Assembly: GCA_018902845.1 (NCBI GenBank)
Contig: JAHIPV010000012.1
Span: 1-60,925 of the forward strand
Origin: Patescibacteria group bacterium
GTDB taxonomy: Bacteria > Patescibacteriota > Microgenomatia > UBA12405
Direction of reading: 5' to 3'
DNA length: 60,925 bases
In this document: piece after piece, positions 8,658-60,925 of the stretch
Position numbering within the stretch: position 1 is the stretch's first letter
Layout of the letters: the number at the start of each line of letters is the position of its first letter
Made by a program: the position numbers and the translations under genes
The notes under the pieces: model-generated
Told to the model about the DNA's origin: nothing
The model's input: only the letters and a program-made list of their open reading frames with translations
Databases searched by the model: none

Positions 8658-10448
8658 ATGGATAATCAGGTCGAAGAAATCAAAAACAAGCTTGATATTG
8701 TCAATGTAATCAGCCAATATCTAACACTCAAAAAACGCGGTCGTCACTTTTTGGCCTGCTGTCCTTTTCATGGCGAAAAAACTCCTTCTTTTACAGTTTC
8801 TCCCGAACTTCAAATTTTTAAATGTTTTGGTTGTGGCAAAGGCGGGGATATTTTTACTTTTCTCCAAGAATACGAAAAAATTGATTTTAGAGAAGCTTTA
8901 GAGATTTTGGCCAAACAAGCCGGAATCACTCTAAAAAGATCAGCCGAATTTACCCAATCTTACGATCAAAAGAAAAAAATACTTGAAATCAACAATCTGC
9001 TTTCTCATTTTTACCACTTTGTTTTGACAAAACATGATCAAGGCAAACAAGCTTTAAATTATTTAAACAAACGGCAAATCTCCTCAAAAACTATCAACAC
9101 ATTTAAAATCGGCTATTCGCCTCAAAATTCAAACAGCCTTTTGAATTTTCTATCAAAAAAAGGCTATAAGCCCCAAGAACTAATAGCTTCTGGTACTTTT
9201 GGTCAATCCTATAATCGTTTATATGATCGTTTTCGTCATCGGCTGGTTTTTCCTCTTATAAACCACCGTGATCAAATTGTCGCTTTTTCCGGTCGTATAT
9301 TGCCATCATCCGGCGATCAAAAATTAGCCAAATATATAAACTCACCGGAAACAGATCTATACCACAAAGGCGGTATGTTTTTTGGGCTCAATCTGGCCAG
9401 AAATCATATTCGAAAAAAAGACTCAGTCATTGTTGTCGAGGGTGAGTTCGATATGATTTCACCTTTCCAAGCCGGTATCAAAAACATTGTTGCCCTAAAA
9501 GGCACCGCTTTTACACAAGATCAACTTCGGCTTCTAAAAAGATACACAGAAAATTTAGTTTTAAGTTTTGACTCGGATTTTGCCGGTACTCTGGCCGCCA
9601 GAAAAAGCATAGAATTGGCCGATTCTATCGGTTTTAACATAAAAGTTTTAGATTTAAAAAATAAGTACAAAGATCCCGACGAAGCTGTTTTAACCGATCT
9701 GCCTTTTTTCAAAAAACAAGTCAAACACAGCCTGTCTATTTGGGATTATTTAATCCGTAGTGCCGTTTCCAATTTTGGTATAGACACGGACAAAGGCAAA
9801 AAACAAATTCTTTCTTTTACTCTACCTTTCTTAGCCAAAATCGACAATTCTGTTATTAAATCAGATTATCTTCGCAAGCTGGCCGCAGAACTTGGGGTTG
9901 ACAAAAATGCTGTCGCTCAAGAAGCCGATAAACTCAGTAAGCCTAATGCTAACAATAATTCTGTTGCTTCAATTTCCTTCATCCACAAACCCAGTCAGGA
10001 AATACTTAGGACAGAAAAATTGGAAGAATATTTATTGGTTTTGCTTTTTTCTGCCCAAAATCCTATCGAATTACTCAAAGAAATCAGCCCCGAGACAGAT
10101 TTGGATCAGATTTTAAGCATGGTCAAATTCAAAACCGTCCTAAACTTGCTTTCAAAACAAAAAAACTTCATCGCCATTTCATTTTCAAAAAAACTGCCAC
10201 CGGAATTAAAAGATATATTTGCCTCCATCTATATCTCCGCCACCGCCAATCAATTCGACCAAGAAAAAATACTTTTAGAGATAAACAAGGTAATCAAAAA
10301 CATCAAGTTGGTTAATCTCAAAACGACACTAAAGGAGTTAAGTCTAAAAATCGCCCGTCTGGAAAATCGCGGACCTGGCGATGAGTTAAAAAAAACCGAA
10401 GAAGAGTATAATCTGACTATTGGAAAGTTATCAAAACTTCAATCATAA
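8658..10448 (+). CDS. dnaG: DNA primase
   Basis: CPFHGEKTPSF...CFGCGKGGDIFTF zinc-binding domain; Toprim VVEGEFDMI. Confidence 0.95.
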   Translation: MDNQVEEIKNKLDIVNVISQYLTLKKRGRHFLACCPFHGEKTPSFTVSPELQIFKCFGCGKGGDIFTFLQEYEKIDFREALEILAKQAGITLKRSAEFTQSYDQKKKILEINNLLSHFYHFVLTKHDQGKQALNYLNKRQISSKTINTFKIGYSPQNSNSLLNFLSKKGYKPQELIASGTFGQSYNRLYDRFRHRLVFPLINHRDQIVAFSGRILPSSGDQKLAKYINSPETDLYHKGGMFFGLNLARNHIRKKDSVIVVEGEFDMISPFQAGIKNIVALKGTAFTQDQLRLLKRYTENLVLSFDSDFAGTLAARKSIELADSIGFNIKVLDLKNKYKDPDEAVLTDLPFFKKQVKHSLSIWDYLIRSAVSNFGIDTDKGKKQILSFTLPFLAKIDNSVIKSDYLRKLAAELGVDKNAVAQEADKLSKPNANNNSVASISFIHKPSQEILRTEKLEEYLLVLLFSAQNPIELLKEISPETDLDQILSMVKFKTVLNLLSKQKNFIAISFSKKLPPELKDIFASIYISATANQFDQEKILLEINKVIKNIKLVNLKTTLKELSLKIARLENRGPGDELKKTEEEYNLTIGKLSKLQS

Positions 10449-10505
10449 AATCATAAAATTGCCAAAAGCTAGATTATTCCCTTCTTTTTTTATACAATAC
10501 AACAC

Positions 10506-11591
10506 ATGAACACCGTTCTCGATTTCCAAAAGATCAAAGAAAAATTATTTCGCCTAGCCAAAAAAAATAACTATCTGACCAACGATGAAATCCTGGAACT
10601 GATTTTAGAACCATACAAATATATTAACGAAATAGACGATATTTTTGATTCGCTTTTTGATAAGGGTATCAATGTTTTCGACAAAATTGCCGAAGAGAAA
10701 GATATGTCTTCCGATTTAGAAGGTCCTCGTAGCATCAATTTAGCCACTCTTGTCAATCCAAAGGCCGGAGTTGATTCCGTTCGTATGTATCTTAAGGAAA
10801 TTGGCAAAATCGACCTTTTGACTTTTAAAGAAGAAATAGAATTAGCCCAAGCTATCGAAAGAGGCTCAGAAGCCGCCAGAGAATGGCTTACCAGCGCCAA
10901 TCTTAGGCTAGTTGTTTCTATTGCCAAAAAATATATCGGTAGAGGCCTAAGCTTTCTTGATCTTGTACAGGAGGGGAATCAAGGTCTTATGCGGGCTGTA
11001 GAAAAATTTGACTGGCGCCGTGGTTTTAAATTTTCCACTTATGCGACTTGGTGGATTCGTCAAGCTATCACCCGTGCTATAGCCGATCAAGCCAAAACCA
11101 TTCGTATTCCTGTTCACATGGTTGAAACTATCAACAAAGTTTACAAAGCCACCAGAGCATTAACCCAAAAACTTGGCAAAGAACCGACTATTGAGCAAAT
11201 AGCCGAAGAAGTTGGTGTGACAGTAGAAAAGGTAGAAGAAATTTACAGAATATCTCAAGACACTACCTCGTTATCTACTCCAGTAGGGGACGACGAGGAT
11301 TCTTTTCTGGGTGATTTTATCGAAGATACTACTCAGGCATCTCCATACGAAGAAGCCTCAAGAGATTTATTAAGAGAATCGGTAGAAGACGTATTGGATT
11401 CTTTAGATGAAAGAGAAGCAAAAGTATTAGGATACAGATTTGGTCTTTTTGGAGAAACCCCTAAAACTTTAGAAGAAGTTGGCAGGGTTTTTAATGTTAC
11501 CCGCGAACGCATTCGTCAGATAGAAGCCAAAGCATTACGCAAACTCCGCCACCCCTCCCGTCGCAAAAAACTCCAAGACTATCTAAACTAA
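10506..11591 (+). CDS. rpoD: RNA polymerase primary sigma factor (sigma-70)
   Basis: [79 protein letters not shown]. Confidence 0.95.
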
Positions 11592-11603
11592 AGGGAAAAC
11601 CCT

Positions 11604-11648
11604 TGTCATTGCGAGGACTCCGATTAATCGGAGGACGTGGCAACCTGT
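11604..11648. repeat. Palindromic repeat TTGTCATTGCGAGGACTCCGATTAATCGGAGGACGTGGCAACC
   Basis: Related to the copy at 5559-5597; contains internal palindrome CTCCGATTAATCGGAG. Confidence 0.6.
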
Positions 11649-11758
11649 CCGCCTCTGGAGGATCCCGTGGGAGTTTAAACTCTTTTTTCTGGATTATTTC
11701 CAAAAACTAAACTATAATCAAGCACGCCTTTGCACCTTAAACTCTTAATTTTTTATTT

Positions 11759-11893
11759 TCAACTCTCATTGAAAATTGGAATTTGAAAATTCTTTAGTCC
11801 GCCTTTGGTGGAGAAAATTAGCCAAGCTTCAACTCTCATTGAAAATTGAAAATTGCGTAGCAAAGCGAAGTCCGCCTTTGGCGGAAAAATTAG
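11759..11893 (+). repeat. Two imperfect direct repeats (TCAACTCTCATTGAAAATTG...GTCCGCCTTTGGYGGARAAAATTAG)
   Basis: Copy 1 about 11759-11821, copy 2 about 11829-11893. Confidence 0.7.
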
Positions 11894-11905
11894 AAATTAA
11901 TATAA

Positions 11906-11977
11906 TCCCCTGTAGCTCAATGGTAGAGCATTCGACTGTTAATCGAAGGGTTCGTGGTTCGAGTCCACGCGGGGGAG
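11906..11977 (+). tRNA. tRNA-Asn (GTT)
   Basis: TCCCCTGTAGCTCAATGGTAGAGCATTCGACTGTTAATCGAAGGGTTCGTGGTTCGAGTCCACGCGGGGGAG; paired acceptor, anticodon GTT. Confidence 0.95.
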
Positions 11978-13525
11978 CCTAGTCGTACTTAATATAACAG
12001 TATTGGCCTGTTGAAGCACATCAATAATCGGTTGGAATTTAATTTCAGCTATTTTTTTGTCTTTTATCAAAAACTCCTTAAAGAAAAAATGGAGATATGC
12101 CTTCTTAAGGTAAATATCTGCCTCTTTGTAGGCTTTTGCAATGTCTTGAGTAATAGCCATAACTTCTTCAATAAGATTTATGTCAACCGTTCTCACTTTG
12201 TCAATTTCCAATAGTTCTGTCTGAATATCTAGGAGGTCAGAATCTATTTTGGTAATAAGTCGTTTGTAGGTATCTCTATCAAACGTTCCTTCAAGCAATT
12301 CTTCCTCCAGTTTATCTCTCTTTAATTCAATTGCCACCTTTCGGTTGTTGATGGCCTTTTTAGATGCTTGAACTCTTTCTGTTGTATTGCTGTATACCTG
12401 ACTGATATTTCTTTTTACCGCTTCAATAAATTCGGGTTTAAATTGCAGTTTTTCTATTTCCTGTTCAACTTGTCCTTCTAGGTTCTCTAACAAGACATAT
12501 TTCTCCTTACAGCCTGTCCCACGTTTACCAAGACCTGAGCAATGATAATACCCTATCTTTCCACCTCGTGATTTAAACCTAGGGCCGTAATGCCATTCAG
12601 CTACAAACCTTCTGCCACAATTCTGACAAAACACGAAACCGTTTAATAAGAAATTATGCTTTCTTTTTCGGATACCGTAATCACCTTTACCTGCCAAGAT
12701 GTTTTGTACAATATCGAATATCGGTTTAGTAATTAATGGCTTATGTTTACCCATAACTTCTAGCCCTTTCCAACGCATTAGGCCGTAACAAAACGGATTA
12801 GTCAGAATCTTATAAACAGCCGAATAGTGAAGTTTTTTACCCAATCTGCCCTCAACCCCATTTTTTGTTAGAAATTGTGTAATTGAATAAATACTGTGGT
12901 CCCCAGTCGCATACATCATATAGGCTTGAGTAATAAATGGGGCTGTCTTTTCATCTTGGACTACTATCCTTTGGTCATAGCTTCCTGTCGGATTAGGATT
13001 AATGATATTTTTAAAACCCAATGTTGCAAATGCGGGCCAGATACCACTTTTAAGCTTTTCTCTAGCAGTTTGTTTTACTTTATAAGAAGTGAGTTTTGGT
13101 TGGATAGAATTTACCACTGCCAATAACTCGTCAATAGCTTCAGAAAAAGGATTGTTTTCATCAACCACCATTCCTGTTAGGGGAATGGTTTTAACCCCAT
13201 ACTTTTCTAGCTGTTTTTTTATAAACAAATATTCGAATGTATTTCTGGAGATACGGGAAGAATCCTGGACAACTAAATAGGATATATCGCCTTTGGAGCA
13301 ACGTACTAGCATCTCTTGAAGGGCAGGGCGGTTCATACTTGTACCACTTATTCCATTTTCCATATAAATATCTTCCGCTAGTTCACCACCTATTTCCTGT
13401 ATCTTTTCGAGAATTTTTGTTTTTTGAACATCGAGAGAAAGACCATTCTCCGCCTGGGAAATCGTACTTACCCTGTCGTACCCCAGGCACAAAGGAATAC
13501 TATTTTTTTCATTCTCTATTTTCAT
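11939..13525 (-). CDS. Large serine recombinase (int1), C-terminus reading into tRNA-Asn
   Basis: Resolvase N-terminus GYDRVSTISQAENGLSLDVQ, SRISRN; recombinase zinc ribbon CQNCGRRF...YHCSG. Confidence 0.9.
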   Translation of the reverse strand: MKIENEKNSIPLCLGYDRVSTISQAENGLSLDVQKTKILEKIQEIGGELAEDIYMENGISGTSMNRPALQEMLVRCSKGDISYLVVQDSSRISRNTFEYLFIKKQLEKYGVKTIPLTGMVVDENNPFSEAIDELLAVVNSIQPKLTSYKVKQTAREKLKSGIWPAFATLGFKNIINPNPTGSYDQRIVVQDEKTAPFITQAYMMYATGDHSIYSITQFLTKNGVEGRLGKKLHYSAVYKILTNPFCYGLMRWKGLEVMGKHKPLITKPIFDIVQNILAGKGDYGIRKRKHNFLLNGFVFCQNCGRRFVAEWHYGPRFKSRGGKIGYYHCSGLGKRGTGCKEKYVLLENLEGQVEQEIEKLQFKPEFIEAVKRNISQVYSNTTERVQASKKAINNRKVAIELKRDKLEEELLEGTFDRDTYKRLITKIDSDLLDIQTELLEIDKVRTVDINLIEEVMAITQDIAKAYKEADIYLKKAYLHFFFKEFLIKDKKIAEIKFQPIIDVLQQANTVILSTTRLPRVDSNHEPFD

Positions 13526-35705: not shown

Positions 35706-37355
35706 TCAATAGTTCCCTAATTGATTAGTCATTGATGTAGTAGGTAACAGAGTCATCGGATTTTTTAGCTTGTCTAGCTCTTGTCTTAGTTCTGCCATTA
35801 ACTTGAAGTTTTCGAATATTTGGAAGGTTTGGGCTAAATAACTAGTTATATTAAGCTTACGGTCCTGGAGCTGATTGTCCGCTAATATAACCCCTTTATT
35901 TTCCCGTAAAATAGCGAAAATAGGGGTTGGCTGAATTCTACTAATCTTCTTATTTTCCACAAAAATCTTCTCATAAAAGAACCGTAAATAGTGACGTTTC
36001 AGAAACTTCGGTGCCTGTTTGTAAGTTTTGTAGATATCTTTGGTAAAAGATAAAACTTCCTCAATTAAATTAATATCAATATTACTCTTGTGTTCAAGGC
36101 CTTGGATTCTTTCATTTATTTTATGAATTTTGTTTTGAATCCTAACATACAATCTTTTAAAAACGTCCGATTCAATTGTTTCATCTAACAATGAATCTTC
36201 AAGCTTGTTTCTTTTTGTCTCTAGTGATGTTTTTTTGTTTATTAGCTTAATTTTTTCCGACTTAAAGTAAAGTCGGTTTTCTTCTAAAATTTCCTTAGTT
36301 TTTTTAACTACAGTAGCAACAAATTCTTGACTAAATTGCATTTTTTTAAAAGTTTTTTCAACTTGAAGTTCAAGATTTTTGAGCTCGACATAAGGAGCAG
36401 GACAACCATTTCTGTTTTGTTTAGGACAATGATAATAAGCAATTTTGTCTAATCTCGAGGATTTAGGTAAATTATGCCAATCAGCCGTATATCTTTGTCC
36501 ACACTCTTCGCAATATATAAACCCTCTTAACAAAAAGTTATATTTACGCTTTCTAATTAAAAAGCTTCTGTGTTTAGCTAAAACATACTGACAAGTATCA
36601 AACAAGTCCTTGTCGATAATTGGTTCTTGCTTCCCATTTTTCGACCTCCCTTTCCATCGAATACGCCCATAATAAAAGGGGTTGTTTAAAATGTTATGAA
36701 CAACTGAATGTCCTGGCGGATTACCGTTTTTGGATACAATATCTTTATCGCTTAACTGTGTTTGTAAATCCGAAATGGAATAACTACCTGTAGCGTAAAG
36801 TTCGAAAAGCTCTTTGATAACAGGGGCTACATATGGGTCTGGTTCGCAAGTTTTTCTTTCTTTTTCACCACCAACACTTTGGTATCCCAACGGTGGCGGG
36901 GTAGGTTGCCAACCACCGCGAAACTTTTGTTCTAAAGCGTCTTTAGTTCGCTTACCGTTGACTTCTGACTCCCATTCGGCAACCGAAGCAAAGATATTAG
37001 CTATCAAGCTAGAGCCATTAGACAAATCACCCTCCATAACCGAGTGAAACTCAATGTTAGATTCCACGAACTCTTTCCTTATCCTTGAAAAGTCAGTTAC
37101 ATTTCTGGCGAAGCGGTCAATTTTGTATATAACTAAGCATTCAACCTCTTTGTTTTTCAGTCTTTTAAGCATTTCCTGAAATTCAGGACGATTGGCCGTT
37201 CTTCCAGACTTGCCATCATCAATAAAAACTTCCTTGGGATGATATCCCCTGTTTACTGCGTATTCCTTGCAAGCTCTTTTTTGGTTATCTAAAGAGTAAC
37301 CCTCAGTAGCCTGCTCATCGGTCGAAACACGAATATAAATGTAACAATTTTTCAT
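35706..37355 (-). CDS. Large serine recombinase (int2)
   Basis: CYIYIRVSTDEQATEGYSLDNQ; KIDRFARN; CEECGQRY...YHCPKQNRNGC. Confidence 0.92.
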   Translation of the reverse strand: MKNCYIYIRVSTDEQATEGYSLDNQKRACKEYAVNRGYHPKEVFIDDGKSGRTANRPEFQEMLKRLKNKEVECLVIYKIDRFARNVTDFSRIRKEFVESNIEFHSVMEGDLSNGSSLIANIFASVAEWESEVNGKRTKDALEQKFRGGWQPTPPPLGYQSVGGEKERKTCEPDPYVAPVIKELFELYATGSYSISDLQTQLSDKDIVSKNGNPPGHSVVHNILNNPFYYGRIRWKGRSKNGKQEPIIDKDLFDTCQYVLAKHRSFLIRKRKYNFLLRGFIYCEECGQRYTADWHNLPKSSRLDKIAYYHCPKQNRNGCPAPYVELKNLELQVEKTFKKMQFSQEFVATVVKKTKEILEENRLYFKSEKIKLINKKTSLETKRNKLEDSLLDETIESDVFKRLYVRIQNKIHKINERIQGLEHKSNIDINLIEEVLSFTKDIYKTYKQAPKFLKRHYLRFFYEKIFVENKKISRIQPTPIFAILRENKGVILADNQLQDRKLNITSYLAQTFQIFENFKLMAELRQELDKLKNPMTLLPTTSMTNQLGNY

Positions 37356-50005: not shown

Positions 50006-51670
50006 TTACACCGTTGATAAAGCCAAACTAGGTTGCTTTGTTATTTTTTTAATTTCTTCCCATCTCTGTCTTAATACCCCAATATAAGCCACATTTTGAA
50101 AGCTTTCTAAGATTTCTTTGATGTTTATATCTTTTATATTAGTGCAAGGATTAGGGAGCACGTTTGACTTTTTTGGTCGTTTTGCGAGTATAAAATAAGG
50201 TTTTTTCCAGTCCCATAGGAGTTTTCCGTCTTTCCATATAAGGTTCTCACAGAAAATACTTACCATCTCTCTCTTATTCTCTGGTAAAGCCATTCGTAAA
50301 CGTTTAGTAACGTGTTTAATATTATCTAGAAAGCCATACATTAACTCGTTCAGTTCGTGAGCCACATCTTCACACTTCACAACAGTCTTTCTCAGAGATG
50401 CCTCTTTTTGGTAACTATCTTCTTTTAAACGATCATATTCACTTTTTGTCAGATCATCTTCAGCAAATTTTCGCCCCAACTTATTTTGTAGTCTTTTTTC
50501 CGTCCTAATTTGTCCAGTAAGACCCATAACTTGTCTTTTGATATTGATTCTTTCTGGCTGGTTTAATTCAGCAACATATTCACGAGCCACCTTCCACGTT
50601 TTCTGATCAATTTCTAAAAATTCAAAAGCTTTCATAAGCTCATCCTCAAGTTTCTTCTCAGGTACATAAGCTCGTTTAACCCCTTTACAGGGAAGTTTTC
50701 TTTTTCCACACCGATAATAGGTAATACCTTTCTTGTGAGTACCAGAGAGCATTTCACCACAAAACTCACATTTAACAATCCCTGAATAAGCATAATCTAG
50801 ACGTGCCCTTTGCGGATGTTTACGTTCATTTATCACTTCTTGTACCTGGTAAAATAACCCTGAAGTAACTAAATCCTCGTATTTGCCCACAACCTTCTCT
50901 CCATCAGAATAAAAGATACTGGTATATTGGATATCACGCAACCGGTTACACCAAGTATTTTTTGCAATCTTTCCCGTAGTGCTCTTTTTACTCCTGGATC
51001 TTAATCCAATACTGTAAGCATAGTCAGTTATTTCATTAAAAGTGTACATACTTGACGCAAACTGTTCAAAAACTTGTTTGACTAATGGGCCTGTTTCAGG
51101 GTCTATAATCCATTTTTTTCTACCAACAGGGCCACGAGTCATATAGCCCAATATCGCCGGTCTAGCAGGATGTCCCATTATCCGAGCCTTAGTTTTCATA
51201 CCTTCCCTAGTTCTATAGCCAGTCTCATCACTTGATTTCTTAGACATAGCGAACTCAATTGCTACCATTAACTGGTCAGACGATGAGTCAGTGAATGTCT
51301 TTGTGGCAGTGTAGATGCGTTTAATAACCCCGCTTTGCATATACCACAAAAGTAAGCCCCCATCACCAAAATTACGGGCAAGGCGACTAATTTCTGTACA
51401 AACGATGCCATCTACTTCACCTTCGTGCTCTTCTAGATATTTAAGCATTTTATTAAAATCATCACGGACAAACGCTTCATATCCCGTCTTGTCATCTTCA
51501 AAAACAGGACAAACAAGTTCTAAATCGTGGTTCTTGATTGCCTCTTTAACAAAATTACGCTGGTATCGAATAGAATTAAGTTGTTTGTGCTCTTTTCCTC
51601 CTTTGTTGTCTTCCGATGATTTTCTTATATAGGCAACAACCTTGTTATATTTTTTTACATCATCCTTCAT
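50006..51670 (-). CDS. Large serine recombinase (int3)
   Basis: VVAYIRKSSEDNKGGKEHKQLNSIRYQ; EISRLARNFGDGG; CEFCGEMLSG...YYRCGKRKLPCKG. Confidence 0.92.
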   Translation of the reverse strand: MKDDVKKYNKVVAYIRKSSEDNKGGKEHKQLNSIRYQRNFVKEAIKNHDLELVCPVFEDDKTGYEAFVRDDFNKMLKYLEEHEGEVDGIVCTEISRLARNFGDGGLLLWYMQSGVIKRIYTATKTFTDSSSDQLMVAIEFAMSKKSSDETGYRTREGMKTKARIMGHPARPAILGYMTRGPVGRKKWIIDPETGPLVKQVFEQFASSMYTFNEITDYAYSIGLRSRSKKSTTGKIAKNTWCNRLRDIQYTSIFYSDGEKVVGKYEDLVTSGLFYQVQEVINERKHPQRARLDYAYSGIVKCEFCGEMLSGTHKKGITYYRCGKRKLPCKGVKRAYVPEKKLEDELMKAFEFLEIDQKTWKVAREYVAELNQPERINIKRQVMGLTGQIRTEKRLQNKLGRKFAEDDLTKSEYDRLKEDSYQKEASLRKTVVKCEDVAHELNELMYGFLDNIKHVTKRLRMALPENKREMVSIFCENLIWKDGKLLWDWKKPYFILAKRPKKSNVLPNPCTNIKDINIKEILESFQNVAYIGVLRQRWEEIKKITKQPSLALSTV

Positions 51671-54142: not shown

Positions 54143-54568
54143 TTATGGCATCGTTGGCACTCCGTTCATGACTTGTTGTAGTTCTTTAAAACCAACTATT
54201 TCACTAAAATTACTCTCTCTTTCTAAATCATCACACAATTTATTAAGTTCATCATCTGTAGGTCTCATCTTAAGCTCTTTTCTTATTGAAAACTCATTTC
54301 TAGCCTTTCTTTCTAAATACCACTGAGAAATTCTAATGTCACCTTTTTCTAGAGCATTAAATATTGTCTTCTTTGCTAATAAAATTGGATTAGTTTTATA
54401 CTCCTCTTTTTGCTCCGAAAATTCAGGATTCTTTTTCTGATAATCATACAGAGTTTGAGATCCAATATTGGCGTAAATACAGGCCTCTCGATCGCTAAGA
54501 CCCATTAAAAAAGCCCCTTTAAGTCTAGCCAGAGTTTCCGTAGTCATTACTGTTGGCCTTCCGATCAT
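54143..54568 (-). CDS. Terminase small subunit-like HTH protein
   Basis: GLSDREACIYANIGSQTLYDYQKKNPEFSEQ...NPILLAKKTIFNALEKGDIRISQWYLERKARNEF. Confidence 0.6.
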   Translation of the reverse strand: MIGRPTVMTTETLARLKGAFLMGLSDREACIYANIGSQTLYDYQKKNPEFSEQKEEYKTNPILLAKKTIFNALEKGDIRISQWYLERKARNEFSIRKELKMRPTDDELNKLCDDLERESNFSEIVGFKELQQVMNGVPTMP

Positions 54569-56077: not shown

Positions 56078-56656
56078 ATGAAAAACAAAACAAAAATTCT
56101 GTTTACCACTCCGATTAAGGATGTCATTGCGAATTATAAAACTGGCGAAAAGTGTGTCCTAGTTTCAAATGAAGCCACTAACAAATTTACAAAGGCCGAT
56201 CTAATAAAAATAATTAAAATATGTAATCAACCTCCAGTCTATAATTTTTTATTTAAATATAGACTTAAAAGTAAACCATATGAACTTAATGATGCTAAAG
56301 AATTTACTAAATGGATTGTTGAAGGATGGAATAAACAAAAGTGGTTTGTCTTCTTAATTCGTAACAGTCAAGATAAAATTATTGGAGCAATTGACATAAA
56401 ATCAGACAATCTGGATTTGGCAGAAATTGGCTATTGGGCAGATGGTAATAGTTTAGGGATTATGACAAACGCCACCCAAAGATTAATTGAACTAGCAAAA
56501 AAAGCTGGTTATAAAAAACTGTACGCCACCACAATGCCAAATAACGATCGTTCTCAAAGTGTGTTAACAAGAAACGGTTTTATTCGTGACGGAGAGATGG
56601 AAAAATCAAGCGGTATGCGTTTTAAATTCACCAAGAATTTATCACCACAATCCTAA
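56078..56656 (+). CDS. GNAT-family acetyltransferase
   Basis: IGAIDIKSDNLDLAEIGYWADGNSLGIMTNATQRLIELAKKAGYKKLYATTMPNNDRSQSVLTRNGF. Confidence 0.75.
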   Translation: MKNKTKILFTTPIKDVIANYKTGEKCVLVSNEATNKFTKADLIKIIKICNQPPVYNFLFKYRLKSKPYELNDAKEFTKWIVEGWNKQKWFVFLIRNSQDKIIGAIDIKSDNLDLAEIGYWADGNSLGIMTNATQRLIELAKKAGYKKLYATTMPNNDRSQSVLTRNGFIRDGEMEKSSGMRFKFTKNLSPQS

Positions 56657-56742: not shown

Positions 56743-57711
56743 TTAACATCTTTTCATATTACCAAATATTGTTGCCAATTCCTGATAAGTCTCTGGACTG
56801 GCAATTTCCACTTGGCCAAGCATCATTAAAGCATCTTCGCGATCAATAACACCAAATCTGGCACGTTCCGCTAAATATTCAAGAATAATAGGATATCTTT
56901 CAATCACAGCCTCAGGATCCTGACTGGCTTGATGATCAAACGCATCAGCAAAAAATACACCCGGAACAAGACAGTCTGTGTCGTAACCTCCACAATTAGG
57001 GTCTATCCAGGGAACCTCATTCTCTAGTATAAAATTTTTGTTACCTCGTTTTGTTAAAGCAAAGGCATATCCACCACGAAAAATTATTATCCCACTAGGC
57101 TTTTCCCAATATAAAGAATATCTGCCATCAGAATTACGCTTAGGAGTGTCACCACCTGTTACTAACACCGTTACTCCTTCGTCTCTCATAATCTCCTTAT
57201 ATTTAGCGTCCATTATTGAGTTGCAAATCTTCCCGCAAGGCAGAGTTCCTTCCTGTCGACATTTTGCATAAACTTCCAAAGTCGACACAGGTTCCCCCGT
57301 AACACCCAGTACAGTGGAACTAGTCTGCAATTGATCTGCAATATCGATTAGCCTATGATTTTGCTCTAAATGTAAAAAAGATACAACACTTCTTATATTT
57401 TCAGCAGTTACTCTCCCTTTCACTCCAGTTTCGATTGTAAAAAGCTTCAAGTCAATTCCTCTCCTTCGACATTCATCGGCCAGCCTTACCAATACTACAG
57501 TACTATCCAACCCGCCTGAATAAGCATAAACAATTTTTGAGTTATTTGATAAAAAATCCTCCAACTCTTGATCAAATATCTCGCGGTTAGGCATTTCTCT
57601 CAATGCCTGTTCACAGGTTCCACATCTTGGTTGTATATCCGTAACCCCAGTTGGTTTTTCTAAACTAACAGGGTTGATACATATTTGACAATATACACGT
57701 TCATTAAACAT
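56743..57711 (-). CDS. PP-loop ATPase (N-type ATP pyrophosphatase) with N-terminal zinc ribbon
   Basis: YCQIC...RCGTCEQ; VYAYSGGLDSTVVLVRLADECRR; CGKICNSIMDAKYKEI; NCGGYDTDCLVPG. Confidence 0.75.
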   Translation of the reverse strand: MFNERVYCQICINPVSLEKPTGVTDIQPRCGTCEQALREMPNREIFDQELEDFLSNNSKIVYAYSGGLDSTVVLVRLADECRRRGIDLKLFTIETGVKGRVTAENIRSVVSFLHLEQNHRLIDIADQLQTSSTVLGVTGEPVSTLEVYAKCRQEGTLPCGKICNSIMDAKYKEIMRDEGVTVLVTGGDTPKRNSDGRYSLYWEKPSGIIIFRGGYAFALTKRGNKNFILENEVPWIDPNCGGYDTDCLVPGVFFADAFDHQASQDPEAVIERYPIILEYLAERARFGVIDREDALMMLGQVEIASPETYQELATIFGNMKRC

Positions 57712-57813
57712 CCAATAATACTCCCTATGTATTCTCTAAACTTTAAAATGATGATATCAAAAAATATCACGACCAATTAATAAAATCAATATGTGTGTGA
57801 CCCGTACAAATCA

Positions 57814-57842
57814 TTGACTTATTTCATACAAAGATCTACAAT
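57814..57842 (+). promoter_or_regulatory. Sigma-70 promoter for the peptide gene
   Basis: TTGACT, 17-bp spacer, TACAAT; ATG begins about 11 nt after the -10 box. Confidence 0.65.
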
Positions 57843-57852
57843 TTTTTTAATT

Positions 57853-58014
57853 ATGAATACACAAAAAGAAAATCCATCTGTCACTACTAGAGTAGCAACA
57901 GAAGCTACAAGGCCAGTTGTCGAAAGTAAAAAGCCTTCAGGATCACACAACCCGACTTGGAGAATGGTTGCCGAGGATGCATTTCGCGCCGGATGTTTGA
58001 TTAATGCAGATTAA
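57853..58014 (+). CDS. Candidate RiPP precursor peptide (53 aa)
   Basis: MNTQKENPSVTTRVATEATRPVVESKKPSGSHNPTWRMVAEDAFRAGCLINAD; own promoter; directly upstream of two radical SAM genes. Confidence 0.5.
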   Translation: MNTQKENPSVTTRVATEATRPVVESKKPSGSHNPTWRMVAEDAFRAGCLINAD

Positions 58015-58072
58015 ATCAACTTTCTAAATAGTTCTGTATTACATTTAGCCCATCCAGAATTTTTGGTACGAT

Positions 58073-59137
58073 ATGACATTTTTAGAAGATAATAAGCTTA
58101 TTTTTGAAAGGCCAGTTAAGGTTCAATTAGACATAACTAATAAATGTAATTTAAATTGCCTGTATTGCTATAACAAATCAAACTATTTTTCGTCAAAAGA
58201 CGACTTAGCTGACAAAGATTTATTCTTAATTGCCAAAAAGATAATAAAAGAACTCAAACCAATTGTATTATCACTGTCAGGTGGAGAACCGCTTCTAAAG
58301 AAAGAACTCACATATAAGATCTTAACGTATGCATCCAAAAAAAATACTGAAATATGGCTCACATCGAATTTACTTTTATTAGACAAAAATACCGCAAAAA
58401 AATTAAAAAAACTAGGATTAAAAAAAATATTTACAAACATTGACAACGTAAACCCCAAAATTCATGATCGACTTAGAGGAAAAAAGGGAGCATTCAATAC
58501 GGCAATTAAGAATCTTAAGCAGGCTAAAAAAATATTTGACCATGACAATATAACCATTACCTCAGTTATTACTAAACACAACTACAAAGACATTGACTTG
58601 ACTATCGACTTTCTCCACAAACACGGCCTTAGTAAACTGAAATTACTAGATATGATTCCAATTAATAATCAATCAATGAAAGATGTTTTAAACCAAAAAC
58701 AATGGCAAGAGTTTTATAAAATTTATAAAAAATCCAATATTAAAGCAAAAACATCTGGCATAACTATCACTCCCTGTCATGCATTATTATTTATGGGACA
58801 AAAATATCTAAAGATGAAATTACCCTTCTGTATGGCAGGCAGGCTTAATTTAGTTATCTTGGCTACCGGTGAGATATTGCCATGTAATCATTTAAAGTTT
58901 AAAGAATTCGGTTGCGGAAATGCTTTAAATGATTCATTATTGGAGGTTTGGCAACAATCTCCCATCCTTAATCGTTTTCGATATGACTTAGACAGCTATC
59001 ATGCTTGTACAAATTGTCCCAGATATACCAAATGTGCTGGTGGCTGTAAAGCAATGTCATACGCATTCTTTCAGAACGCATTTCAAAAAGATCCTTACTG
59101 TAGTACATACAAACTTAATCAACATAAATATGAGTAA
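58073..59137 (+). CDS. Radical SAM/SPASM maturase-like protein 1
   Basis: CNLNCLYC; LSGGEPLL; C-terminal C...C...CTNCPRYTKCAGGC...C. Confidence 0.9.
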   Translation: MTFLEDNKLIFERPVKVQLDITNKCNLNCLYCYNKSNYFSSKDDLADKDLFLIAKKIIKELKPIVLSLSGGEPLLKKELTYKILTYASKKNTEIWLTSNLLLLDKNTAKKLKKLGLKKIFTNIDNVNPKIHDRLRGKKGAFNTAIKNLKQAKKIFDHDNITITSVITKHNYKDIDLTIDFLHKHGLSKLKLLDMIPINNQSMKDVLNQKQWQEFYKIYKKSNIKAKTSGITITPCHALLFMGQKYLKMKLPFCMAGRLNLVILATGEILPCNHLKFKEFGCGNALNDSLLEVWQQSPILNRFRYDLDSYHACTNCPRYTKCAGGCKAMSYAFFQNAFQKDPYCSTYKLNQHKYE

Positions 59138-60125
59138 AAAAAATGTGGGATTACATATATTAGAACTCGAGTTGACAAATAAATGCAATTTAAATTGCAA
59201 GCACTGTTATGTTGACAAAAAACATACAAGTGAACTACCTTGCGAAACAGTCAAAGACATAATAAGTCAGGCAAAAGAACTTGATGTCTATAGATTGGTA
59301 TTTACTGGTGGCGAGCCGCTTATCTATTCAAAAATATTTAATGTAGCGACATATGCAAAAAAACTTGGGATAAAAAATCTATTTTTATTAACTAATGGTA
59401 TTCTCGTTAATAAAAAAAATATTAACAAGCTAAAAATATTTGATGGAATCCAATTAAGTTTAGATAATATACCTAACCAAAAATCATCATTAAGAAAAGA
59501 TTATTCAAATGTTCTTGAAAATGCTGTTTCATTACTCCAACAAAATAATATCAATATTAACTTTTACTGCACTTTATGTAAAAGTAACACTGATAAGATA
59601 GATCAAATAATAAAATACGCAAACAATTTAAATGTAAGAATTGGTTTCAATACCCTCATACCATTATATCCAAGTTTAGAAAATCAAACCCTATCTCCTC
59701 AAGAAACGAAAGAATCTTTGACAAAAATAATTAATTATATAAATAAAGGCTTTAACGTCAATTTATCTCACCATCTTAGATTTTTAGTAGACAAACAAAA
59801 GAAAGCAGATTATGAATCATTAATTAAGGAAAATCCGAATAAAATCCATGGTGGTTGTCTTGCGGGTATTGCTGCTTTATACATTTCTAGCGATGGCTCT
59901 GTACTGGCATGTCCATTTATAAAATATCCCTGTGATAATATTTTTAAAAATAATTTATACAATATTTGGGAAAACAACGAAATATTAAATGTATTAAGGA
60001 ATCGAAAAAATTTTGAAGGAAAATGTGGAAAATGTAAATACGTTAATGTTTGTGGCGGTTGTAGAGCACATAGTCTTCTAAAATATGGCAAAATAAACTC
60101 ATCAGAATTTGGATGTTTCCTTTAA
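59130..60125 (+). CDS. Radical SAM/SPASM maturase-like protein 2
   Basis: CNLNCKHC; FTGGEPLI; C-terminal CGKCKYVNVCGGCR; start at 59130 overlaps upstream stop by 8 bp. Confidence 0.88.
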   Translation: MSKKNVGLHILELELTNKCNLNCKHCYVDKKHTSELPCETVKDIISQAKELDVYRLVFTGGEPLIYSKIFNVATYAKKLGIKNLFLLTNGILVNKKNINKLKIFDGIQLSLDNIPNQKSSLRKDYSNVLENAVSLLQQNNININFYCTLCKSNTDKIDQIIKYANNLNVRIGFNTLIPLYPSLENQTLSPQETKESLTKIINYINKGFNVNLSHHLRFLVDKQKKADYESLIKENPNKIHGGCLAGIAALYISSDGSVLACPFIKYPCDNIFKNNLYNIWENNEILNVLRNRKNFEGKCGKCKYVNVCGGCRAHSLLKYGKINSSEFGCFL

Positions 60126-60132
60126 AAAACCA

Positions 60133-60732
60133 ATGATCAAAATACGCCCGGCATTAACTAACGATGCTAAAAAAATAGCCTACATAAAAAACACAACTTG
60201 GAAGGACACATATAAAAATCTAATAGACTCTTTTTACCTAGACAATCTCGAGATATCGCAAGAAATAATCAATAAATGGAAAAACAGAATCCTGGATACA
60301 AAAAGTAATCAAACATATTTTTGGGTTGCTCTTAAATCCAATCAAGTTGTCGGTTTTTTGTGGGGAGGTGGAGCCAGAGATCCTAAGATTGAAAAACTAA
60401 AATACGAACTGTACGCTTTCTATGTTTTACCTAAATATCAACACCAAGGAATAGGTAAGAAGTTGTTCTCTACGTTTGCAAACAATATAAAAAAAGATTT
60501 TTTTCTTTGGATGCTAAAAGACAATATGTCCGAGCTAATATACGAAAAATTAAAATGTCAGAAAACCAATTACGAGAATTTAATAGATATAGGAAATAAA
60601 CAATATAAAGAAATTGCGTTTATATATAAACATAAAAATATAAACCAATTAGACCCAAACTGTGCTTTTTGCGATCCGTCCGTAATTGAAAAACAGGGGA
60701 TTTACAAAAACGGTTCTGTTGTTGTGACCTGA
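60133..60732 (+). CDS. GNAT-family acetyltransferase with HIT-like C-terminal stub
   Basis: ELYAFYVLPKYQHQGIGKKLFSTFANNI; tail DPNCAFCDPSVIEKQGIYKNGSVVVT. Confidence 0.75.
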   Translation: MIKIRPALTNDAKKIAYIKNTTWKDTYKNLIDSFYLDNLEISQEIINKWKNRILDTKSNQTYFWVALKSNQVVGFLWGGGARDPKIEKLKYELYAFYVLPKYQHQGIGKKLFSTFANNIKKDFFLWMLKDNMSELIYEKLKCQKTNYENLIDIGNKQYKEIAFIYKHKNINQLDPNCAFCDPSVIEKQGIYKNGSVVVT

Positions 60733-60898: not shown

Positions 60899-60925
60899 TC
60901 TTTCCACCTCCTTCATCACTAAAAG

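Follow-up and report, generated by a model that had tools for sequence, protein, structure and literature searches.

A candidate RiPP-type maturation cluster pairing two radical SAM/SPASM enzymes with a PP-loop enzyme in a Patescibacteria genome

Ribosomally synthesized and post-translationally modified peptides (RiPPs) matured by radical S-adenosylmethionine (SAM) enzymes with SPASM domains are well known. Mycofactocin, PQQ, SynChlorMet (ScmD/E/F), and GeoRSP all combine a small peptide with SPASM radical SAM enzymes, and SynChlorMet has two of them, judging by its two NCBIfam models. Here we describe a locus of similar composition at the end of a 60,925-nucleotide stretch of DNA, hereafter the window, from a Patescibacteria group bacterium (GenBank assembly GCA_018902845.1, contig JAHIPV010000012.1). 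The window is the whole of this contig (C8) of a 1.06-Mb genome. The locus holds an open reading frame (ORF) for a 53-residue peptide, two radical SAM/SPASM genes (rSAM1 and rSAM2), a GNAT acetyltransferase gene, and a divergent gene for a PP-loop ATP pyrophosphatase (Table 1). We put the probability at roughly 70% that this is a RiPP-type maturation cluster of the radical SAM/SPASM kind, with the peptide as precursor and the PP-loop enzyme as a new helper. That kind of RiPP is known, and there is a minority chance that the chemistry here is new. In comparison with the described systems, the peptide is different, the PP-loop enzyme is an addition, and equivalog scores are far below cut-off (GeoRSP was the top model for rSAM1; ScmE, ScmF, MftC, and PqqE scored lower). 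A preliminary description of the window, made from its sequence, had not recognized the gene set, and this judgment stands: no NCBIfam equivalog cut-off was reached, and in the literature searched, no paper describes the combination or links a PP-loop enzyme to radical SAM RiPPs. Its suggestion that biosynthesis of this sort would be unusual for the lineage is weakened, as the same genome has other RiPP-like loci and bacteria of the candidate phyla radiation (CPR) are already known to hold graspetide clusters (PMC8939145). Those clusters use ATP-grasp ligases, whereas none was seen in the window's cluster.

The case for a functional unit is carried by a second locus. Candidatus Roizmanbacteria AS27yjCOA_175 (genome G072, contig JAAZNM010000004.1; locus L020), a member of the same class that was reached through an rSAM1 match, has an operon in the order rSAM_A, PqqD, rSAM_B, 34-residue peptide, and PP-loop gene, in which all genes overlap or nearly touch. 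The order in the window is different. On direct re-reading, it consists of the PP-loop gene on the minus strand, a 141-bp divergent gap, the peptide ORF, 58 bp, rSAM1, rSAM2 (overlapping rSAM1 by 8 nt), and the GNAT gene, which starts 7 nt after the rSAM2 stop. The five genes of the preliminary description were all found where it had placed them, along with the 58-bp gap and the overlapping SAM genes. The check it had proposed, for conserved co-occurrence of the five in other CPR genomes, came out positive in this one genome, in rearranged form, for the peptide, the radical SAM pair, and the PP-loop gene. It came out negative for the GNAT, as the Roizmanbacteria operon has no counterpart of either GNAT gene in Table 1. 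Because the GNAT is missing there, the five genes reduce to a core of four (peptide, two radical SAM enzymes, and PP-loop enzyme), and the GNAT downstream of rSAM2 is an accessory gene that is not conserved. No close relative carries the gene set. The patchy distribution over two families and the different gene order suggest horizontal movement, and the cluster may have arrived on a recombinase-type mobile element.

The candidate precursor, MNTQKENPSVTTRVATEATRPVVESKKPSGSHNPTWRMVAEDAFRAGCLINAD, has a presumed core from W36 to D53. Its C-terminal part (KKPSGSHNPTWRMVAEDAFRAGCLINA) aligns without gaps over 27 residues with that of the Roizmanbacteria peptide (KKANKVSKKAWKLNVKEFRYAACMMNA), and 9 of 20,000 shuffles did as well as its Smith-Waterman score of 38. 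The two peptides are reciprocal best matches, each being the top match of the other among all small ORFs considered (236 in L020 and 697 in the window). They have in common a C-terminal motif, W-x11-C-[LM]-[IM]-N-A, and a final D; within the presumed core, the identical residues are W, A, C, N, and A. In DNA form, the motif was found a single time in the window and never in shuffled versions of the window. A scan of approximately 85,000 species genomes returned 26 matches, and IMG/VR returned three; among these, the Roizmanbacteria match alone adjoins radical SAM and PP-loop genes. The other 25 genome matches and the three from IMG/VR, which have no neighboring radical SAM or PP-loop gene, were judged to be chance. 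Conservation of a short gene-encoded peptide next to tailoring enzymes, as is expected of a RiPP, was observed in L020. The preliminary description had made its reading depend on the peptide persisting beside the SAM genes in relatives, and it does so in this one independent case. On the strength of two loci, the peptide appears to be real and part of the gene set. It would then be the substrate, divided into a leader and a core.

Both radical SAM enzymes are complete and have the makeup of SPASM maturases, with a CX3CX2C motif and a SPASM cysteine set. In rSAM1, the former lies at residues 25-32 and a canonical SPASM set, CX2CX5CX3C, at 312-325, with the last cysteine at C343; in rSAM2, the corresponding motifs lie at 19-26 and 299-311, the latter being a shortened CX2CX5CX2C set that is also found in rSAM_B. 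The Pfam Radical_SAM model matched the two enzymes at 2e-24 and 3e-17, and SPASM at 9e-12 and 2e-6. rSAM2 and rSAM_B are mutual best matches (31-33% identity, 138 bits, against 79 bits for the next best match of rSAM2 outside the locus pair) and form sister rows in the tree (90/92); their profile found no comparable match in the other genomes searched. rSAM1 and rSAM_A likewise have the look of maturases. No close relatives of rSAM1 were found by a degenerate scan of genome contigs, and its matches in 186 related genomes were all at most 30% identical. Other rSAM1-like loci in relatives (L025-L031), some of which encode different Cys-rich or Asp-rich peptides, were rejected as counterparts, having neither a PP-loop gene nor a matching peptide. 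The best NCBIfam model for rSAM1, GeoRSP (TIGR04303, cut-off 400), gave 150.8 bits, and 111.8 for rSAM2; ScmE and ScmF (cut-offs of 400 bits) gave 103 and 97 bits for rSAM1 and 75 and 82 for rSAM2. rSAM2 ranked the heme b synthase AhbD (TIGR04545, cut-off 500) first, at 163 bits (127 for rSAM1), followed by NirJ2. Neither enzyme belongs to GeoRSP or AhbD. The anti-phage viperin family (pVip) was also rejected: PADLOC matches were partial, reached at most 78 bits, and covered the radical SAM core, which they reflect, while the SPASM domain is present; the NCBIfam viperin model scored 77 bits against a cut-off of 180.

The PP-loop enzyme carries 11 cysteines, with zinc-ribbon pairs at C8/C11 and C30/C33, the PP-loop SGGLDS at 65-70, a three-cysteine set (C159, C163, and C247), and a C-terminal RxRFGVIDREDAL motif. 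In Pfam, it reaches 17.2 bits with ATP_bind_3, below the cut-off of 27, but motifs, profiles, and fold support the PP-loop assignment. The window protein and its Roizmanbacteria counterpart are homologous (E 3e-13, 23-26% identity), and both have paired cysteines at the N-terminus, the PP-loop, LPCxKIC, and GYxxDCL. In a 12-row alignment, the broader family comprised true WbuX proteins, glutaminase-fused forms, and Cys-bearing forms; the central pair C159/C163 is missing from the first two and kept in both cluster enzymes. An AlphaFold2 model built on this alignment (a version from a two-row alignment was rejected, at a predicted local distance difference test score [pLDDT] of 42) had its closest Foldseek matches in NcsA (6scy) and TtuA (5ztb/5gha), then WbuX (8wex); the nitrile synthetase ArtA was also among the matches. 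The archaeal and bacterial [4Fe-4S] PP-loop enzymes NcsA and TtuA, which are tRNA thiolases, and LarE appear to resemble it in zinc ribbon, PP-loop fold, and three-Cys spacing. In NcsA, Cys142, Cys145, and Cys233 are the ligands of the [4Fe-4S] cluster, which has one open iron site (PMC10067955). From the first two cysteines to the third there are 88/84 residues in the window protein, 85/81 in its Roizmanbacteria homologue, and 91/88 in NcsA. In contrast to these enzymes, the cluster protein adjoins a peptide and a radical SAM pair, is approximately 12-15% identical to them, and has no C-terminal zinc finger that we could identify. The N-acetyl sugar amidotransferase WbuX (TIGR03573, PDB 8wex) is alike in zinc ribbon, PP-loop, and C-terminal helical motif. 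However, the Roizmanbacteria protein reached 58 bits (1.1e-15) against a cut-off of 203, the window protein gave no match at E up to 1, and the cluster enzymes have the extra conserved Cys motif and no sugar locus.

Homologues of the PP-loop enzyme are scarce. Overlapping sets of genomes (380 from the phylum, 374 from the class, 44 from the order, and 116 around G072) were searched with a profile of the two proteins, and full-length matches came only from the source genome and G072. There was no other match in 186 related genomes, and none by tblastn in plasmids and phages. One phage protein in IMG/VR (L118) was rejected, as it has neither the zinc ribbon nor radical SAM neighbors, and matches in genomes G165 and G020 are different relatives with no adjoining radical SAM pair. 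In G020, a CPR genome, a gene for a WbuX-like PP-loop protein bearing a central Cys pair is followed by aminotransferase-like and glutamyl-tRNA-reductase-like genes (contig C96, 6519-10537; L091). Proteins in which a class-II glutaminase (MCGIFG start) is fused in a single chain to a zinc-ribbon PP-loop amidotransferase recur in the class (L096, L097, L099, and L109).

How might these parts work together? We infer every bond formed, the product, and the product's role from the kinds of enzyme present. The N-terminal part of the peptide would serve as leader, bound by PqqD in Roizmanbacteria and, in the window strain, by another partner or by the enzymes themselves, while the C-terminal residues, approximately 18 (W..AxC[LM][IM]NA..D), would be modified. 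rSAM1 and rSAM2, made together as their overlap implies, would abstract hydrogens from the core and leave one or more crosslinks or desaturations, most likely at the lone conserved Cys (as a thioether) and the conserved Trp. The PP-loop enzyme would then adenylate a core carbonyl or the C-terminal Asp carboxylate and exchange that oxygen, and, in the window strain only, the GNAT would cap an amine by acetylation. Because an asparagine-synthetase-type RiPP enzyme makes a C-terminal nitrile (PMC13060819), action of a PP-loop enzyme on the peptide C-terminus is plausible by analogy. That enzyme, PesC of nitrilobacillin, was reported in 2026 and works with MNIO and HExxH enzymes (PMC13060819); it is likewise an ATP-dependent activator of a precursor C-terminus in a RiPP pathway, whereas the cluster enzyme is of the NcsA/WbuX type and partnered with radical SAM/SPASM enzymes. 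The cluster's PP-loop protein falls between the N-acetyl-sugar amidotransferases and the [4Fe-4S] thiolases NcsA and TtuA, and because of this position and the NcsA/TtuA-like three-Cys spacing, it would be expected to swap oxygen for sulfur (or nitrogen) on the peptide. The modeled fold and the spacing favor sulfur over nitrogen; the sulfur would be delivered by way of a [4Fe-4S] site on the three cysteines. Taken to its full extent, this would be a new RiPP class in which an NcsA/TtuA-like enzyme inserts sulfur, as a thioamide or C-terminal thiocarboxylate, into a peptide crosslinked by two radical SAM/SPASM enzymes, a proposal we regard as rather unlikely in that complete form. If it were true, it would to our knowledge be the first tRNA-thiolase-type enzyme acting on a peptide.

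Several observations weigh against a RiPP cluster with a sulfur-inserting PP-loop enzyme. Only two examples of the gene set are at hand, and the tree does not demonstrate orthology between rSAM1 and rSAM_A. The window's cluster has no protease, transporter or exporter, or immunity gene. No RiPP recognition element or PqqD was found in the window, including at the N-terminus of rSAM1, whereas the Roizmanbacteria copy has the discrete PqqD known from PqqD-using SPASM systems; the other PqqD proteins of the source genome (contigs C14 and C22) belong to other loci. The structural model is weak (mean pLDDT 60, with 70-89 in the core around the nucleotide site, and fold matches at a template modeling score of ~0.4), and there is no neighboring gene for a sulfur carrier. 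The first Cys pair of the three-Cys set is CX3C instead of the CX2C of NcsA, and relatives of the PP-loop enzyme include amidotransferases and nitrile synthetases. Because of the CX3C spacing and the weak whole-protein similarity, an amide, amidine, or nitrile may be formed instead.

The best-surviving alternative keeps the RiPP cluster and does without sulfur: the PP-loop enzyme would use ammonia to form an amide, amidine, nitrile, or lactam on the C-terminal Asp. The WbuX match of the Roizmanbacteria protein, the zinc ribbon and the R-x-G-x-I-x-R-x-x-A motif common to WbuX-type proteins, the fold matches to 8wex and ArtA, the Asp at the end of both peptides, and the precedent of PesC all fit such a reaction. 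However, there is no glutaminase gene or domain next to it, and WbuX and the glutaminase-fused homologues do not have the C159/C163 motif of the cluster enzymes, which leaves this a possible but tentative reading. An improbable one is that the SPASM and PP-loop enzymes serve a non-peptide pathway, such as a tetrapyrrole-like one or tRNA modification, and that the small ORFs are incidental. The ranking of AhbD and NirJ2 for rSAM2 and the closeness of the PP-loop fold to tRNA thiolases point that way, but all scores are far under the equivalog cut-offs, the C-terminus of the peptide is conserved alongside these genes in a distant genome, and the G072 operon includes a PqqD peptide chaperone. Finally, it is very improbable that these are unrelated accessory genes in a mobile island near the contig end, as the recombinase and restriction-type genes of the window, the opposite strand of the PP-loop gene, and its GC content and that of the peptide (39-43%, against 28-31% for the radical SAM genes) might suggest, since the four components turn up together again, in another order, in a second family of the class, although the PP-loop family is otherwise absent from the several hundred genomes searched.

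If the RiPP reading holds, a radical SAM pair with a thiolase- or amidotransferase-like PP-loop enzyme would add a type of modifying enzyme to RiPP chemistry. Members of the Patescibacteria have tiny genomes, and most of them live on other cells. The four-gene core is a compact target for testing which small molecules they use toward hosts or rivals, and the window and Roizmanbacteria copies are both usable as ready constructs.

Table 1. Features of the window's cluster and of its Roizmanbacteria counterpart (L020).
Locus	Feature	Coordinates	Strand	Basis
Window	Second GNAT (Acetyltransf_3), upstream of and convergent with the PP-loop gene; membership doubtful	56078-56656	+	Pfam
Window	PP-loop ATP pyrophosphatase, 322 aa	56743-57711	-	Motifs, profiles, fold; homologue beside matching peptide in L020
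Window	Sigma-70-like promoter string TTGACT-17-TACAAT	57814-57842	+	String match; not above chance count
Window	Candidate precursor peptide, 53 aa	57853-58014	+	Ungapped match to 34-aa peptide of L020
Window	Radical SAM/SPASM enzyme 1 (rSAM1), 354 aa	58073-59137	+	Pfam, Cys positions
Window	Radical SAM/SPASM enzyme 2 (rSAM2), 331 aa	59130-60125	+	Pfam, Cys positions; L020 counterpart rSAM_B
Window	GNAT acetyltransferase, 199 aa, co-directional with rSAM genes	60133-60732	+	Pfam GNAT 2.5e-10
L020	rSAM_A	9463-10485	Same strand as the other four	SPASM enzyme (NCBIfam, Pfam)
L020	PqqD protein	10473-10778	Same strand	NCBIfam/Pfam PqqD 1e-11
L020	rSAM_B	10775-11773	Same strand	SPASM enzyme (NCBIfam, Pfam)
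L020	34-aa ORF	11766-11870	Same strand	Matches window peptide
L020	PP-loop gene	11892-12773	Same strand	Homologue of window PP-loop protein

The peptide had been described as having a clean promoter. The string is there, but it has little weight as evidence, since the window has 20 such sites and 19.6 are expected by chance in shuffled sequence. Because the predicted promoter ends 10 nt before the peptide ATG, an mRNA from it would have little or no 5' untranslated region. The GNAT downstream of rSAM2 carries a Cys-pair tail (NCAFCDP), and its C-terminal stretch (60640-60732, DPNCAFCDPSVIEKQGIY), which has no profile match, presumably resembles the start of a HIT-family protein. The contig stops 193 bp past this gene, at 60925. 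Elsewhere in the window are restriction-type genes and three large serine recombinase genes (11906-13525, 35706-37355, and 50006-51670), one of which ends against tRNA-Asn; we regard the three recombinases as stacked mobile elements. A terminase small subunit-like gene near the cluster (54143-54568; phrog_4102, 1e-17) would be a phage remnant or satellite.

The source genome keeps several peptide-modifying loci despite its small-genome lineage. On contig C9 (6838-8411; L023), a 53-residue Cys-rich peptide (..NSQCGDCGDCACAEGKIKASNKADCDCAC) lies directly 5' of a radical SAM/SPASM gene, making this another RiPP-like locus. Contig C22 (8224-12056; L022) encodes a 55-residue peptide ending in ATACACKAGDDNPWPQ, together with a GNAT and a radical SAM enzyme fused to PqqD; another radical SAM gene lies on the opposite strand. 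On contig C14 (3444-5870; L116), a 55-residue peptide with a KWIKPKITVKEL stretch is accompanied by PqqD, an HPr-kinase-like ATPase, and an S24-peptidase/nucleotidyltransferase-like gene, a set that calls to mind lasso-type helper genes. On the minus strand of contig C3 (8422-10377; L021), two radical SAM genes stand in tandem between housekeeping genes, and one of them seems to lack its beginning. In related genomes, short Cys-rich or Asp-rich ORFs that adjoin radical SAM/SPASM genes (L026, 2463-2630; L027, 4339-4458; L117, 2601-2741) are probably further peptide substrates.

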